Assembly: GCA_903928075.1 (NCBI GenBank)
Contig: CAIYPD010000061.1
Span: 1-64,000, forward strand
Length of the DNA: 64,000 nucleotides
Reading direction: 5' to 3'
Source of the DNA: Candidatus Firestoneibacteriota bacterium
GTDB lineage: Bacteria; Oederibacteriota; D2-FULL-39-29
Every line of letters begins with the position of its first letter. The stretch's first letter is position 1. Below are positions 4,176-59,513 of the stretch, piece after piece. The notes beneath the pieces were generated by a model. It did not search any database. It was given only the letters and a program-made list of their open reading frames with translations, and was not told where the DNA came from. The translations under genes were made by a program, and so were the position numbers.

Positions 4176-4230
4176 GACTACAAGATAACAAGGGACAAGA
4201 AAGAAGCTTAAAGCATTGCACTTACATAAA

Positions 4231-4348
4231 TATCCCTCAACGGTTTTAGACCTTACAAACCTTACAGACTTTATAGACCTTTACGGACTTTTACAGACCC
4301 TTAACACTATCCTTCAACGATCTTAGACCTTACGGACTTTACAAACCT
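4231..4348. repeat. Degenerate decamer array TTAYRGACYW (family B), two half-arrays each headed by TCAACGRTYTTAGACCTTAC
   Basis: TTATAGACCT TTACGGACTT TTACAGACCC TTAACACTAT at 4271-4310; direct repeat 4231-4256 / 4309-4334 with 3 mismatches. Confidence 0.8.
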
Positions 4349-5062
4349 TTATATCTCTTCATCTTCATCAACTTCCATTGTCTTGTCGTTAAACGGCTTA
4401 ACTACCACACAAAACTCACCGAGTATTTTCTTCGAAGTAAAATAATCTATGACCTCCGTCGCAGTACCCCGCACTGTTTCTTCAAATTTTTTTGTAAGTT
4501 CCCTGGAAACCGAAATAAAAACTTCACCCAGAACCGTTCGGACATCATGAAGTGCCTTGATTATCCGGTGCGGCGACTCATAAAAAACAATTACCATATC
4601 CGAATTCTTTAACGCTTCCAGTTCCTTCCTGCGTTTAGAAGGTTTTTTCTTTAAAAAACCCAAAAAAACAAATTTATCCGCCGGCATACCGGCGACCGAT
4701 AAGGCTGAGATTACCGCAGAGGGCCCGGGCACAACTTCGACCTTAATTCCGTTATTTCTTGCCTCAGCAACCAGCTGCCAGCCGGCATCGGAGATACAGG
4801 GCGTACCCGCATCAGACACAACAGCGATACTTTTACCTTCCAACAGAGAGGAAATAAGATTATTGCCTTTAAAATTTTTGTTGTACTCATGATAACTGGT
4901 TAGAGGCTTTTCAATGCCGTAATGGGTCAGAAGTGTTTTTGTGACCCGGGTATCTTCTGCCGCAACAAGATCAACTTCTTTTAAGATCCTAACTGCACGA
5001 AAGGTAAAATCTTCAAGATTTCCTATCGGCGTACCTATTATATAAAGCGTCCCGCTGCTCAC
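4349..5062 (-). CDS. rsmI: 16S rRNA (cytidine1402-2'-O)-methyltransferase
   Basis: LYIIGTPIGNLEDFTFRAVRILKEVDLVAAEDTR and SDAGTPCISDAG motifs. Confidence 0.95.
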   Translation of the reverse strand: MSSGTLYIIGTPIGNLEDFTFRAVRILKEVDLVAAEDTRVTKTLLTHYGIEKPLTSYHEYNKNFKGNNLISSLLEGKSIAVVSDAGTPCISDAGWQLVAEARNNGIKVEVVPGPSAVISALSVAGMPADKFVFLGFLKKKPSKRRKELEALKNSDMVIVFYESPHRIIKALHDVRTVLGEVFISVSRELTKKFEETVRGTATEVIDYFTSKKILGEFCVVVKPFNDKTMEVDEDEEI

Positions 5063-17457: not shown

Positions 17458-18156
17458 TTAACTGATTTCTTTCAGTATTTTTTTCGCGGCTTCTGCGGGA
17501 TTGTCTGCTCCGGTTATAGGCCGGCCGACAACAATATAATCCGCGCCTCTTTCTATGGCTTCTTTCGGTGTAACGACTCTTTTCTGGTCGTTTTTTTCAG
17601 ACCAGGAAGGCCTGACCCCGGGAACAATAATTTTAAAACCAGCTCCGCAATTCTCTTTTATCCGGGTTATTTCTTCGCCGGAGGCAACAACCCCTCCCAG
17701 TCCGGCCTTTTTTGCAAGTTTTGCCAGATGCACGACCTGCTCTGCGGCGGATAAATCTATATTTAAGTCTTTTTTAAGGGTTTTTGAGTCCATACTGGTC
17801 AGGACGGTGACTCCGATAAGCAGCGGAGGATTTTTTGTTTTCCCAACTTCCAAGGCGGTTCTTTGCATCATCTCAAATCCGCCGGAGGCGTGAACATTGA
17901 AAATATGCACCTGCAAAGCAGAAGCGGAAAGAGCCGCTCTGGCTACCGTGTTGGGAATGTCATGAAGCTTTAGATCCAAAAAAACCTTGCCCCCAAAAGC
18001 GTGAATTTTTGAGATAACTGAAGGGCCCGCAGAAATGAAGAGCTCAAAACCCACTTTAAAAATACCGGCATAAGGCGCCACACGGGCCGCCATACTTAAA
18101 GCCTCTTGCTCCTGCGAATAATCAAGCGCGACTATTATTTTATCTTTGGCCTGCAT
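17458..18156 (-). CDS. pyrF: Orotidine 5'-phosphate decarboxylase
   Basis: IIVALDY, FLDLKLHDIPNTV, YIVVGRPITGADNP; start re-set to MQAKDK with GAGGAAAAT upstream. Confidence 0.95.
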   Translation of the reverse strand: MQAKDKIIVALDYSQEQEALSMAARVAPYAGIFKVGFELFISAGPSVISKIHAFGGKVFLDLKLHDIPNTVARAALSASALQVHIFNVHASGGFEMMQRTALEVGKTKNPPLLIGVTVLTSMDSKTLKKDLNIDLSAAEQVVHLAKLAKKAGLGGVVASGEEITRIKENCGAGFKIIVPGVRPSWSEKNDQKRVVTPKEAIERGADYIVVGRPITGADNPAEAAKKILKEIS

Positions 18157-23101: not shown

Positions 23102-23260
23102 AGACTCTCCTTGAAAAGGATTCTCCGCCAGTGACAAGCTCTCATCGCAGGCAGACAACATAAGAACAAATTCGAAATTTTAAGCTCGAAATTCGAAATA
23201 AAACTGACAAAAAGAAAACAAAGAAATCTTGTAAACTTTAAAGACTTTATGAACTTCGTT

Positions 23261-23647
23261 TTATCCTGCCGGATAAAACGGAATATTTCGTAGCACCGTA
23301 AATACTATTATCAAAACTATTATAACCCACAAAAACACCCTATTATTAAAAACATCCGGGAGTTTCTTTGAAAAGAGCGCTTCCGCAAGATATACCGTGA
23401 TACCATAAATCAGAACCGGCAAAAGCACCACGAGCAGGAGATTAAACTTCACCGCTTCTTTAAAATTGAGATGGAGCAAGCTATGCACCGCCCGCAAGGT
23501 TCCACAGCCTGGACAATTCAAACCCATAAATATTCTTGTGGGGCATTTCGGATAAATACCATCCCCTCCCGGTTTAACTAAATAGATAAATAGAAGCCCG
23601 ACAATCCCAAATACAAGCAAAACTTTGGCAATAGCTTTCTTAGACAA
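23261..23647 (-). CDS. DUF2752 membrane protein
   Basis: CPTRIFMGLNCPGCGTLRAVHSLLHLNFKEAVKFN. Confidence 0.85.
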   Translation of the reverse strand: MSKKAIAKVLLVFGIVGLLFIYLVKPGGDGIYPKCPTRIFMGLNCPGCGTLRAVHSLLHLNFKEAVKFNLLLVVLLPVLIYGITVYLAEALFSKKLPDVFNNRVFLWVIIVLIIVFTVLRNIPFYPAG

Positions 23648-23690: not shown

Positions 23691-23717
23691 TGTGACAGTC
23701 ACAGTGTGACTGTCACA
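23691..23717. repeat. Near-perfect 27-nt inverted repeat overlapping the ogt stop codon
   Basis: TGTGACAGTCACA-G-TGTGACTGTCACA: 13-nt arms with a single central base, followed by T7 on the plus strand. Confidence 0.85.
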
Positions 23718-46262: not shown

Positions 46263-47738
46263 TTAGTATTTTTGAAGCAGCTCCAGCATTTTCCTGTCCA
46301 GCTTGTGACCCCGGAAGTCTTCATAAACAACATCTTTCCTGTTGCTGTCCAACATACCGAACTCACCGCGGAAATTCCACAAAGCCCAGCCCCAGCCGGC
46401 CTCCTTCCAATTAATAAGACAGTCTTTCATCCAGTCCAGGGTCACCGCATGCGGTGTATAACAAAAAGCTCCCCATTCTCCGACAATAATTCCGGAACCC
46501 TTGGCTTCCAGTTTTTTCCAGGGCAGGATATTTTGCTTCCACATATATTCCCTATCCACCATCTCCGCTGTTTTAAAAGGCGAGGAACTATTTTGGGCAT
46601 CGTAAACCACTACGGCCTGTTTTACACCCCACTGCATATAAGGACGAAGAACCGCTTTATTGATCTCTATTTCCGAAAAGGTCATCCAATCGCCTTCGGT
46701 ATTTTGAATTTCAATCCGGCCGGTTCCGGCAGGAAGGTCGCAAAAAAAGTCTTTTTCGTAAATATTCTGGTAAATTTGCCATTCTTTATTATAAAATTCC
46801 TTCTTCCATTCCCCTTGTCCGGGCCCGCATTTTAATAATTTATTTACGGTTTCCCGGCCGTCAACTTTTATTACGAGCCGGGAGAGACTGGAAACGGTAT
46901 CGATCCTTATCCGGAGTTTTGTTTTTTCTTTAATATTACATTCAATTACCAGGGGCGACATCAAATCTTTTTTTCCTGAACCGTATAGAAAACTATTCAG
47001 CTTAGGCATCGGCCACACAGGCACAGGATACCTGTCGGCGCCTTCAACCCAGGAGGCAAGGTAATGGCTGACATTTGAAGGGAAATACCCCCGGGTGGCC
47101 TGGGCCACTTTTAACGACAGTATTTTTTCCGCAGGCACGGTCCCCCACTCTAAACCATCCGCGATGATAAGCCGTCCGGGGTCATGTTCTCTGATAGCAT
47201 CCGTCATAATTTTTGCAACTTTAAAATAAACTTCTTCGTCTATCCCCTTGGGCTCGTTAAAAAGGTTAAAACTAAGGTCTTTACCCGGTATATTTTTATA
47301 TCTTTTTGCAAAAAAAGCCCAGTGGAACGCGCAAGCTTTTTGAGCTTCAGTGTCTGTCCACAAATCTGTTTTTTCCTTTGGATTTTGATTTACCGAATAC
47401 CCCGGCGCCCGGTGAAAGTTGATACACACATGGATTCCATACTTCCTGCCGTATTCCACCGCCAGGTCTATTTCTTTCATAACGCTTTCATTTATTTGGT
47501 AAACATCATTGTCTTTTATCCAAACCCTGTAATCCATAGGCAGACGGACAAAATTAAAACCCAAAGAGGATATCATTTTAAAGTCCTCTTCACTAAAAGG
47601 TTTATTTGACCACTCCTTGGAGAACTTCTCCAAAAGATTAAAACCCCGCCATACAGGCAAATGCCGGTAGTCCGCCTGTTCTTCCGCCAGCACCGGCAAG
47701 AAGCACACAATTACCAATAGAAGAATATATTTTTTCAT
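46263..47738 (-). CDS. Glycoside hydrolase family 5 (cellulase-like), with an insert in the barrel
   Basis: LGFNFVRLPMDYRVW, FNLFNEP (acid/base), VGEWGAFC (nucleophile), GWALWNFRGEFGMLDS. Confidence 0.92.
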   Translation of the reverse strand: MKKYILLLVIVCFLPVLAEEQADYRHLPVWRGFNLLEKFSKEWSNKPFSEEDFKMISSLGFNFVRLPMDYRVWIKDNDVYQINESVMKEIDLAVEYGRKYGIHVCINFHRAPGYSVNQNPKEKTDLWTDTEAQKACAFHWAFFAKRYKNIPGKDLSFNLFNEPKGIDEEVYFKVAKIMTDAIREHDPGRLIIADGLEWGTVPAEKILSLKVAQATRGYFPSNVSHYLASWVEGADRYPVPVWPMPKLNSFLYGSGKKDLMSPLVIECNIKEKTKLRIRIDTVSSLSRLVIKVDGRETVNKLLKCGPGQGEWKKEFYNKEWQIYQNIYEKDFFCDLPAGTGRIEIQNTEGDWMTFSEIEINKAVLRPYMQWGVKQAVVVYDAQNSSSPFKTAEMVDREYMWKQNILPWKKLEAKGSGIIVGEWGAFCYTPHAVTLDWMKDCLINWKEAGWGWALWNFRGEFGMLDSNRKDVVYEDFRGHKLDRKMLELLQKY

Positions 47739-47760
47739 TTCTTTTTGCCCTCTTTTTCCT

Positions 47761-47810
47761 TTAAATACCTTTATAGACCATTACGGACTTTTACAGACCA
47801 TTATGGAATA
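47761..47810. repeat. Decamer array TTAYRGACYW (family B), five units at exact 10-nt period
   Basis: TTAAATACCT TTATAGACCA TTACGGACTT TTACAGACCA TTATGGAATA. Confidence 0.85.
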
Positions 47811-47814
47811 TTTT

Positions 47815-49107
47815 TTACTTTATCGGGTTCGCAAAGCTCACCAAATCTATCTGGGACGGGTCGTTTTCCGGCGTATTTTCTATGTTTACTATCCAGGGAA
47901 CAATATATAAACGCCCTGCGGGGTGCGGAATCACCGAATGGGTAAGAGCCATACAGCGGCCGTCCTCGAGCCGGATTATTCCCCAATCGTTATATTTTTC
48001 AGTGCGCAGATTATAAGTTATGAGCTTCAGTATTGCACCTTTATGCCCGTATTTTATCGGGTCCTGACCATAGGCCCTCGGAATACCTGTAATATAGTAG
48101 ATGGTTTCGTTATCCGGATCGATAGAAAGCCCGCCGTAGCCATAGTGATAAGGCTCGTATTCGCCGCTCTCGCGGATGGGCTTGGCAGAAAGGCGTTCAA
48201 TAAGTTTTATCTCGGGCTTGGAAGGGTCAAAGCTGAAAAGGTAGCCGGTCCTGGGGTGTGTACCGTAAAATACCTGGTTAGCTTCGTTCCAGAAGATTTC
48301 CCGCCAGTTATAGGCCATATGCCCGGGTTTATGCGGATCGTGTTGACCAAACATATCCCGACACATAGAAACACCTTCAAATTTCTCTATCTTGTCTTTG
48401 GCATAATTATAACGAAAGATGGTCCCGTCTGAATGGGTAAAAAATACGGAACCATCAACAGGATAGACCGCAAGCGCGCGGCAAAGGACAAGGTAGCGGT
48501 CCCCCATTCCCACTTCCCCGTCCAGGAAGGAAGGACCGAAATCATGGTAACGCTTTTCCTCTATGTCATAATAAGCAAAATGGCCGTTCGGCCAGGTAAT
48601 CATGTAAAGGCGTTTGCGTTTCTTGTCCATATTGAAGGTGATGATGCCTTCGTTCTTCACGGGTATGCCAAAGTCTGTTACCTCGCCTGTTTTCATATCA
48701 TAACAGGCGCAATGCCCGCCGGGATACGGTTTATACCCCTCGGGAATTTTTGAAGCGGGAATTTCTTTGCGTCCTTCGCTGATAAAATATCCTATGTGTG
48801 TGGAAAAATAAAGTTTATTATCAAGTTCAAAGAAGGGGGCATGGCTCTTGCCCTGAGATACGGTCTTGGTCTCGCTCTCTCCCAACGCCTCACCGAAATT
48901 CGCAACTACCTTTACTTCATCCTTCGCGGGATCATACCGGCACATTGAAGCATGTTTATCATGTTTATGGGTGCATAAGGTATAATAGATACAGCCATCG
49001 CTCCCGAGGGTCGCGGAATAAAAATGTGAATCCGTCTCCGCACCTGCAGGATGAACTTTCGCCCTAAGCACCGGTTCCTTTCCAAAATAATTTTTTGCTT
49101 CCGTCAT
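47815..49107 (-). CDS. Predicted beta-propeller-like protein, unknown
   Basis: Repeated blade-like segments (HFYSATLGSDGCIYYTLCT, KRLYMITWPNGHFAYYDIEEKRY, NETIYYITGIPRAYG). Confidence 0.65.
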   Translation of the reverse strand: MTEAKNYFGKEPVLRAKVHPAGAETDSHFYSATLGSDGCIYYTLCTHKHDKHASMCRYDPAKDEVKVVANFGEALGESETKTVSQGKSHAPFFELDNKLYFSTHIGYFISEGRKEIPASKIPEGYKPYPGGHCACYDMKTGEVTDFGIPVKNEGIITFNMDKKRKRLYMITWPNGHFAYYDIEEKRYHDFGPSFLDGEVGMGDRYLVLCRALAVYPVDGSVFFTHSDGTIFRYNYAKDKIEKFEGVSMCRDMFGQHDPHKPGHMAYNWREIFWNEANQVFYGTHPRTGYLFSFDPSKPEIKLIERLSAKPIRESGEYEPYHYGYGGLSIDPDNETIYYITGIPRAYGQDPIKYGHKGAILKLITYNLRTEKYNDWGIIRLEDGRCMALTHSVIPHPAGRLYIVPWIVNIENTPENDPSQIDLVSFANPIK

Positions 49108-58419: not shown

Positions 58420-58495
58420 GGCGGTGTAGCTCAGTTGGTAGAGCACGGGAATCATAATCCCATGGTCGGGGGTTCAAGTCCCTCCGCCGCCACCA
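58420..58495 (+). tRNA. tRNA with CAT anticodon (probably elongator Met), CCA encoded
   Basis: GGCGGTGTAGCTCAGTTGGTAGAGCACGGGAATCATAATCCCATGGTCGGGGGTTCAAGTCCCTCCGCCGCCACCA folds as a cloverleaf; loop ATCATAA. Confidence 0.93.
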
Positions 58496-58559
58496 ATTAT
58501 AAAAAGATAGTCTAAAAGTCAAAAGTCCGTAAAAAAAAGTACTTTTTTTGTTTTTGACC

Positions 58560-58592
58560 TTATAGACCTTCGACCTTACAAACCTTAGGGAC
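58560..58592. repeat. Family B-like degenerate units
   Basis: ttatagaccttcgaccttacaaaccttagggac. Confidence 0.5.
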
Positions 58593-58598
58593 GGTATT

Positions 58599-59513
58599 AT
58601 GCTCCTGGTCATTGGGTTAAATAATGCTTACCAGAAAGTCTTTGTTTTCGACGCTTTTTTTGAAGGCCGGGTTCTTCGGGCCAAAGCCTCCTATACCTCT
58701 GCCAGCGGGAAGGGTCTCAACACCGCAAGAGCTCTAAAAACCCTGGGCGGAAATGTAGTTGCTTCAGGTTTAATAGGAGGGAGCAACGGCAGGCATATCC
58801 TCGAAGAACTAAAAAAGGAAAAGGTCCGTTCTGCTTTTGTTTCTACCGCCGCCAATACCAGACTCTGCCTGACTGTCGTAAACAATAAAAAACATACTTT
58901 TACCGAGCTTATTGAACCGGCGGGGAAAATATCTACCTCCGAAAATGCGGCTCTTAAGAGAAAACTCTCAGAACTTCTCAAAAAAGCAAACCTAGCCACT
59001 GTCTCCGGCACACTGCCGCCGGGAGTTCCGGAAAATATCTACAAATGGATAATACAAGAGGCGGCAAAAACCGGAACACGGGTTCTGGCTGATATAAGTA
59101 AAGGCCCTATGCTTTCGGCCGCTACGGCAAAACCCTACCTTATTAAAATGAACCGCGAAGAATTTTCGGATACCTTCAGAACTAAAAATGTTAAAGACCA
59201 GATATACAAACTCTTCAAAAAGGGGATCTGCTGGATAATTATTACCGACGGCAGAAAGAATTTTATGGCAGGAGTTTCCGGAAAAATATTCCTGGTTACC
59301 CCGCCAAAAATAAAAGCGGTTAACGGAGTCGGGGCCGGCGACGCCATGCTGGCCGGACTGGCCTACGGAATAGACAAAGGGTTTATCCCTGAAGAAACAC
59401 TGAAAATCGCCTCGGCTGCCGGAGCGGCAAGCGCAATGACAATAAGGCCTTCAGAGTTCAAACCGGCAATGCTGAAGAAACTTATATTAAAAGTCAAAGT
59501 AAGGCTGCTCTAA
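58599..59513 (+). CDS. PfkB-family sugar kinase (1-phosphofructokinase / tagatose-6-phosphate kinase-like)
   Basis: ASGKGLNTARALKTLGG; VNGVGAGDAMLAGLAYG. Confidence 0.9.
   Translation: MLLVIGLNNAYQKVFVFDAFFEGRVLRAKASYTSASGKGLNTARALKTLGGNVVASGLIGGSNGRHILEELKKEKVRSAFVSTAANTRLCLTVVNNKKHTFTELIEPAGKISTSENAALKRKLSELLKKANLATVSGTLPPGVPENIYKWIIQEAAKTGTRVLADISKGPMLSAATAKPYLIKMNREEFSDTFRTKNVKDQIYKLFKKGICWIIITDGRKNFMAGVSGKIFLVTPPKIKAVNGVGAGDAMLAGLAYGIDKGFIPEETLKIASAAGAASAMTIRPSEFKPAMLKKLILKVKVRLL

Follow-up and report, generated by a model that had tools for sequence, protein, structure and literature searches.

Oriented arrays of a degenerate 9- or 10-nt repeat at gene ends in one bacterial family: a probable gene-end signal

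The array of five decamers at 47761-47810 was found to be one member of a genome-wide family of intergenic arrays, in each of which RACY(N)TTAYR is repeated directly 3 to 16 times. The arrays began within about 20 nt of the end of a protein or tRNA gene, were oriented with respect to that gene, and often had an inverted array facing the other gene of the gap. The unit was under sequence constraint, and the arrays persisted at orthologous gaps. Rather than being peculiar to one locus, the arrays probably function as a signal at gene ends. Our leading explanation, which is held tentatively, is that they form a lineage-specific, non-coding gene-boundary family that would be read by a putative sequence-specific factor at gene ends. 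The window, that is, the whole 64,000-nt stretch analysed, represents contig 61 of a 2.72 Mb genome, labelled G000 here.

The array and its two flanking genes were located as follows.

47758..47807, + strand: array under study, with 10-nt units RACYNTTAYR on the + strand, filling most of a 76-nt gap
47815..49107, - strand: gene upstream of the array, 430 aa, no match in the Pfam search
46263..47738, - strand: gene downstream of the array, GH5 cellulase family (PF00150, E 7e-24)

Both flanking genes lie on the - strand, and the mRNA sense of the array is GTCYRTAANG. The stop codon of the upstream gene is 7 nt from the array, and the ribosome-binding region of the GH5 gene starts at the end of the array. 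The five units started at 47761, 47771, 47781, 47791, and 47801, in the exact 10-nt register that had been described by the sequence-only reading. The three inner units fitted the family consensus TTAYRGACYN, while the first (TTAAATACCT) and the last (TTATGGAATA) were degenerate edge units. The resemblance to 4271-4304 over about 34 nt was also recovered, with positions 47771-47804 identical at 31 of 34. As for the neighbours that had been named, the GH5 assignment was supported by Pfam, but the gene called beta-propeller-like (47815-49107) matched no Pfam family. With up to 3 mismatches, TTACAGACCNTTATRGA matched the window 7 times against an expected 0.69, and 7 matches were reached in none of 100 shuffles. 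The arrays at 47761-47810 and 4247-4353 scored 40 and 64 bits, respectively, compared with a maximum of 20.4 among 40 shuffled windows; the scoring matrix (a cyclic unit model) had been set by eye on these same arrays, and the independent test is the genome-wide pattern count given below. In the Rfam search, a tRNA alone reached the threshold within the window, with no match for the arrays.

Further arrays and related elements were found in the window.

4247..4353, + strand: second array, in which units of 9 nt and of 10 nt are mixed; it overlaps the stop codon of an rsmI-like gene (4349-5062, - strand)
4230..4251, + strand: head motif ATATCCCTCAACGGTTTTAGAC at the intergenic end of the 4247..4353 array
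4307..4328, + strand: second head-motif copy ACTATCCTTCAACGATCTTAGAC, inside the 4247..4353 array
58556..58592, + strand: sense arm of a third array, preceding a PfkB-family gene (58599-59513, + strand)
58521..58540, - strand: weak inverted partner of the third array, 26 nt beyond the 3' end of tRNA-Met (58420-58495, + strand)
23224..23256, + strand: weak or decayed array (22 bits, marginal), 4 nt from the stop of an ORF starting at 23261 (- strand)

Across G000, the 10-nt-spaced pattern TTAYRGACYNTTAYRGAC occurred 114 times and the 9-nt-spaced pattern TTAYRGACYTTAYRGAC 55 times, and the reversed controls occurred 0 times. The earlier proposal was upheld in that the decamers belong to a dispersed family that favours a particular period, of which the array under study was the second member seen. 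The distance between anchors was 9 nt in 100 cases and 10 nt in 117, with one case each of 8 and 11. The exact 10-nt periodicity that had been claimed was true of the copy at 47761-47810 but not of the family, in which both lengths were used. The 9-nt spacing was preferred in the sister species (G001) and in the more distant G004. The autocorrelation of intergenic DNA, which the sequence-only reading had named as a check, peaked in G000 at lags 10 (z 14) and 20 (z 12), with a further series at 9 and 18; that of G001 was dominated by 9, 18, and 27. Within G000 arrays, the 9-nt spacings lay toward the intergenic end and the 10-nt spacings toward the gene (68 versus 22 pairs; reached in 2 of 2000 permutations). 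The middle units between two anchors gave the consensus GACYNTTAYR for 10-nt units and RACYTTAYR for 9-nt units. Conservation was 90-99% in every column other than Y, Y, R, and, in 9-nt units, the first base; changes at the variable positions were almost purely transitions.

The placement relative to genes was analysed in stretches of G000 (376 kb) and of G001, G002, and G004, most of which had been picked for holding arrays, so that densities are biased; the genes were longest-ORF calls. Of the 77 arrays in the sampled G000 stretches, 5 fell within called ORFs. The array tail, which is the 3' end in the GACY orientation, lay within 30 nt of a stop codon in 43 cases and within 30 nt of a start codon in 13, and heads were rarely near genes. 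The tail-to-stop distance was at most 22 nt in 43 of 51 cases, mostly 0-20 nt past the stop codon. In co-directional gaps, 58 of 63 arrays pointed toward the nearer gene (58 versus 5, p 2e-12), 37 of them antisense in the first half of the gap and 21 sense in the second half, with 5 exceptions. Furthermore, nearby arrays of opposite orientation were always arranged '-' then '+', that is, outward (33 versus 0 inward, in three genomes). About half of the arrays, including that at 47761-47810, were single and had no inverted partner. Divergent gaps were avoided: among gaps of at least 120 bp, arrays were present in 2 of 30 divergent ones versus 64 of 175 others (p 6e-4). In addition, antisense arrays were found past the 3' ends of tRNA genes, at 26 nt for tRNA-Met in the window and at 6 nt for tRNA-Arg in G001 (L188). 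Because the arrays abut tRNA 3' ends, translation is not needed. One rule would describe this placement: whichever way a transcript runs beyond a gene, it is predicted to read (GUCYRUAAN)n first.

Paired arms formed hairpins (z -5.0 for L087), and the transcript of the 47761-47810 array folded modestly (z -1.8). The complementarity of an arm to its own partner was barely higher than to other arms (permutation p 0.026, 0.54, and 0.05). When even weak inverted partners were looked for beside the lone arrays, none were found. The hairpin was accordingly rejected as the conserved feature: arms that are hardly partner-specific and arrays that have no partner do not indicate pair-by-pair selection. 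The replacement of intrinsic terminators by arrays was not supported, as terminator hairpins were no commoner in gaps with arrays (2 of 35) than in others (9 of 63).

The comparison with the sister species showed that the arrays are kept in place. The G001 ortholog of the 47815-49107 gene was 84% identical, with an array flush with its stop codon and upstream of the GH5 gene; this array was spaced 10, 9, 9. Among 19 orthologous gaps, an array was present in both species in 7, in G000 only in 2, and in neither in 10 (p 7e-4). The orientation was identical in 7 of 7 shared gaps. Because the G001 sample was biased toward stretches with arrays, the number of shared gaps is inflated; the agreement in orientation is unaffected. 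For one pair that could be aligned, L088/L230, the two substitutions within the array were both at the degenerate Y. The array stands there immediately before a conserved intrinsic terminator, and because that terminator follows directly, the array would be part of the 3' UTR. Other copies therefore had both a preferred period and conservation, the lack of which would have spoken against the earlier proposal. That proposal had recognized the decamer family and its period; it had missed the two unit lengths, the gene-facing polarity, the inverted pairs, the placement at 3' ends, and the head motif.

The main rival is that the arrays are a selfish or passenger dispersed repeat, a miniature element of the REP type whose copies land or survive only just past gene ends and whose unit is conserved by its own copying machinery. 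This is possible, though not probable. Longer arrays often started, on the intergenic side, with the head motif ATATCCNTCAACGATTTTAGAC, and this motif was amplified, with 91 copies in G000, 13 in G001, 4 in G002, 3 in G004, and none in G003 or G005 (reversed controls 0). The difference between 91 copies in G000 and 13 in its sister species indicates recent copying or spreading within G000. The presence of arrays also differed between orthologous gaps, as a passenger would predict. The array at L093:9685-9998 had no counterpart in G001, where it was lost or never present, and behind the G001 ortholog of rsmI (L242) the place of decamers was taken by an unrelated array of 7-nt units, which had an inverted partner. 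REPs, too, lie no more than 20 bp from the 3' ends of ORFs and are avoided in divergent gaps (PMC3733652). However, the unit consensus was kept in old copies dating from before the species split, the array at 47761-47810 had no head motif, and Y1/RAYT genes carried their own unrelated palindromes and had almost no adjoining arrays: 16 of 17 Y1 genes were without an array within 800 bp, and the other had one at 146 nt. Origin from a RAYT/REP system was therefore ruled out, with the Y1 genes being flanked by other palindromes. An origin from phages was rejected: in 2.9 million viral contigs, the 9-nt pattern gave 2 short matches and the 10-nt pattern none.

Among 45 genomes of this small phylum, arrays were restricted to one family, where they occurred in both species of the G000 genus that were included and in two of the three members of the sister genus. 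The genomes of other families gave no array match or one chance match. The genome of G003 (1.7 Mb), from the same genus as G002 and G004, had at most one array match and no Y1 transposase, while its congeners had both. Since this family member has essentially none, the element is dispensable.

Other repeats were observed in these genomes. Two contig ends (G000:C2:6-228 and G000:C46:4-92) carried the head motif at 67-bp intervals, which suggests that the assembly was interrupted by a larger satellite array. A dispersed repeat, ATCCGTGTATCTGTGTCATCTGTTTTTATCCATGCCCGCC, was commonly next to the head motif on its intergenic side (L076, L077, L085, L093, and L095). A hairpin element of the form GCAAAGCTTTTCTCG..GATATATAGATGTCAAC-loop-GTTGACATAGCGAGATAAG was seen beside or within arrays (L077 from 13842 onward, L079, L080, L083, and L091), and also in the other genus (L194 and L196 of G004). 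A (GGTNCTA)n family, with units of about 7 nt and an inverted partner, was present at gene 3' ends of G001 (L242 and the downstream flank of L184:4538-5273). At 23691-23717 of the window lies the palindrome GTGACAGTCACAGTGTGACTGTCAC, which is the REP-like palindrome flanking Y1 transposase (RAYT-like) genes in G000 and G004 (L226, L231, and L232). A 40-bp tandem repeat (CCACAAAGCGTTGGCGGATCTCGCTACTCTGC...) was found at a G001 contig end (L214:3550-3871, the end of G001:C38), with palindromic relatives in G000 (L093:2978-3064 and 18023-18072).

A device acting at the DNA level is unlikely. It would consist of a protein that binds cooperatively along one face of the DNA, at sites roughly a helical turn (9 or 10 bp) apart, and acts at gene ends as a polar roadblock or as an anchor of the nucleoid. 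The spacing, which was confined to 9 or 10 bp, does come close to one helical turn, and the polarity was the same whichever strand was transcribed; the Y/R degeneracy together with the invariant GAC..TTA might suit indirect readout of DNA. However, mixed 9/10 spacing drifts out of helical phase, and in arrays of 9-nt units each unit falls short by more than 1 bp. Moreover, no candidate protein was found, and a roadblock would be costly in the 76-nt gap between two probably co-transcribed genes.

A neutral minisatellite, produced by replication slippage or foldback at gaps, is disfavoured and very improbable. The array length did differ greatly between orthologous gaps, for example, 160 versus 42 nt. 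However, the polarity was strict and the placement conserved, and at the two degenerate positions included in the test, neighbouring units resembled each other no more than random units did, with other positions fixed: for the Y and R after TTA, the agreement between adjacent units was 0.47 versus 0.45 expected and 0.49 versus 0.49. Slippage gives alike neighbours and conversion homogenizes every position, and both slippage and gene conversion are therefore disfavoured. Since neighbours were uncorrelated at these two positions, the Y/R variation appears to be saturated, and the pattern fits a unit under purifying sequence constraint. An element related to translation, either back-up stops in all frames or mimicry of ribosome binding past the stop codon, is largely refuted and has scarcely any likelihood left: the mRNA-sense unit contains UAA, which the 10-nt spacing spreads over all frames, and TAAAGG resembles part of the Shine-Dalgarno complement, but arrays abut tRNA genes too, sense-oriented arms precede start codons, and back-up stops were ruled out by the next in-frame stop being no closer in gaps with arrays (median 10 codons) than in other gaps (11 codons) of G000.

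The arrays are a new variety of dispersed intergenic repeat, with REP-like placement but neither palindromic nor linked to RAYT genes. REP/BIME elements are dispersed and intergenic, lie within about 20 bp of ORF 3' ends in co-directional or convergent gaps, and often form pairs of opposite orientation (PMC3733652). The present arrays were similarly intergenic, near ORF 3' ends, and rare in divergent gaps, and they formed opposite-orientation pairs, all outward, with about half of the arrays single. Unlike the REP, a 20-40 bp palindrome with a GTAG or CGTC tag, their unit is a non-palindromic, untagged direct repeat of 9 or 10 nt in variable copy number. The nearest direct-repeat analogue is the TAACTGA heptamer of Beggiatoaceae, Cyanobacteria, and Bacteroidetes, a short direct repeat present in many intergenic sets with a preferred gene orientation (PMC4679880). 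It has one exact 7-nt unit and lies mostly just upstream of start codons (PMC4679880). The arrays share the intergenic sets and the gene-related orientation; in contrast, their units are 9 or 10 nt long, degenerate, and of other sequence, they form inverted pairs, and their tails are mostly at stops rather than at or before starts.

The STRR (short tandemly repeated repetitive) sequences of cyanobacteria are short intergenic tandem repeats with heptanucleotide units, dispersed through the genome. The arrays are likewise short, intergenic, tandem, and dispersed; their sequence, two-length spacing, and gene-facing polarity are not known among STRR. A search of the literature (open papers) found no description of such a 9/10-nt array. 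Like rut sites and terminators, the arrays lie at predicted transcript ends, with UC regularly spaced, and Rho is encoded in the genomes that carry them. However, a rut site is C-rich, G-poor, and unstructured, whereas the mRNA sense of a 3' arm, GUCYRUAANG, has more G than C. Unlike intrinsic terminators, which have a G+C-rich hairpin and a U run, the arrays have no U-tract hairpin. Rho is also encoded in array-less relatives.

As the hairpin, the stop back-up, and the replacement of terminators were unsupported, recognition of the repeated sequence itself is the best reading. A putative sequence-specific factor, binding several adjacent units, would read the repeated motif either in the RNA of the 3' UTR or in the DNA that the polymerase has just passed. 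The likely effect would be that the 3' end of the transcript is set or protected and the gap insulated. Such setting or protection of 3' ends, with insulation of gaps, is a role proposed for REP/BIME elements. Inverted pairs may additionally fold into long hairpins; since about half of the arrays stand alone, as does that at 47761-47810, pairing is not required. A stronger version, which we regard as unlikely, is a new gene-end code, in which a degenerate 9/10-nt repeat read first by leaving transcripts would be bound by a dedicated, putative RNA- or DNA-binding factor, and transcript ends would be defined by this factor in a single bacterial family.

Intergenic repeats like these are usually set aside as junk. 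The polarity, the placement at both protein and tRNA genes, the saturation of the degenerate positions only, and the persistence at orthologous gaps argue that a non-palindromic repeat without a known transposase marks gene ends. The arrays are thus a test case for whether REP-like placement arises from a host function at transcript ends or from tolerance of a passenger. Moreover, the array-less relative G003 provides a natural comparison for the search for a partner factor.
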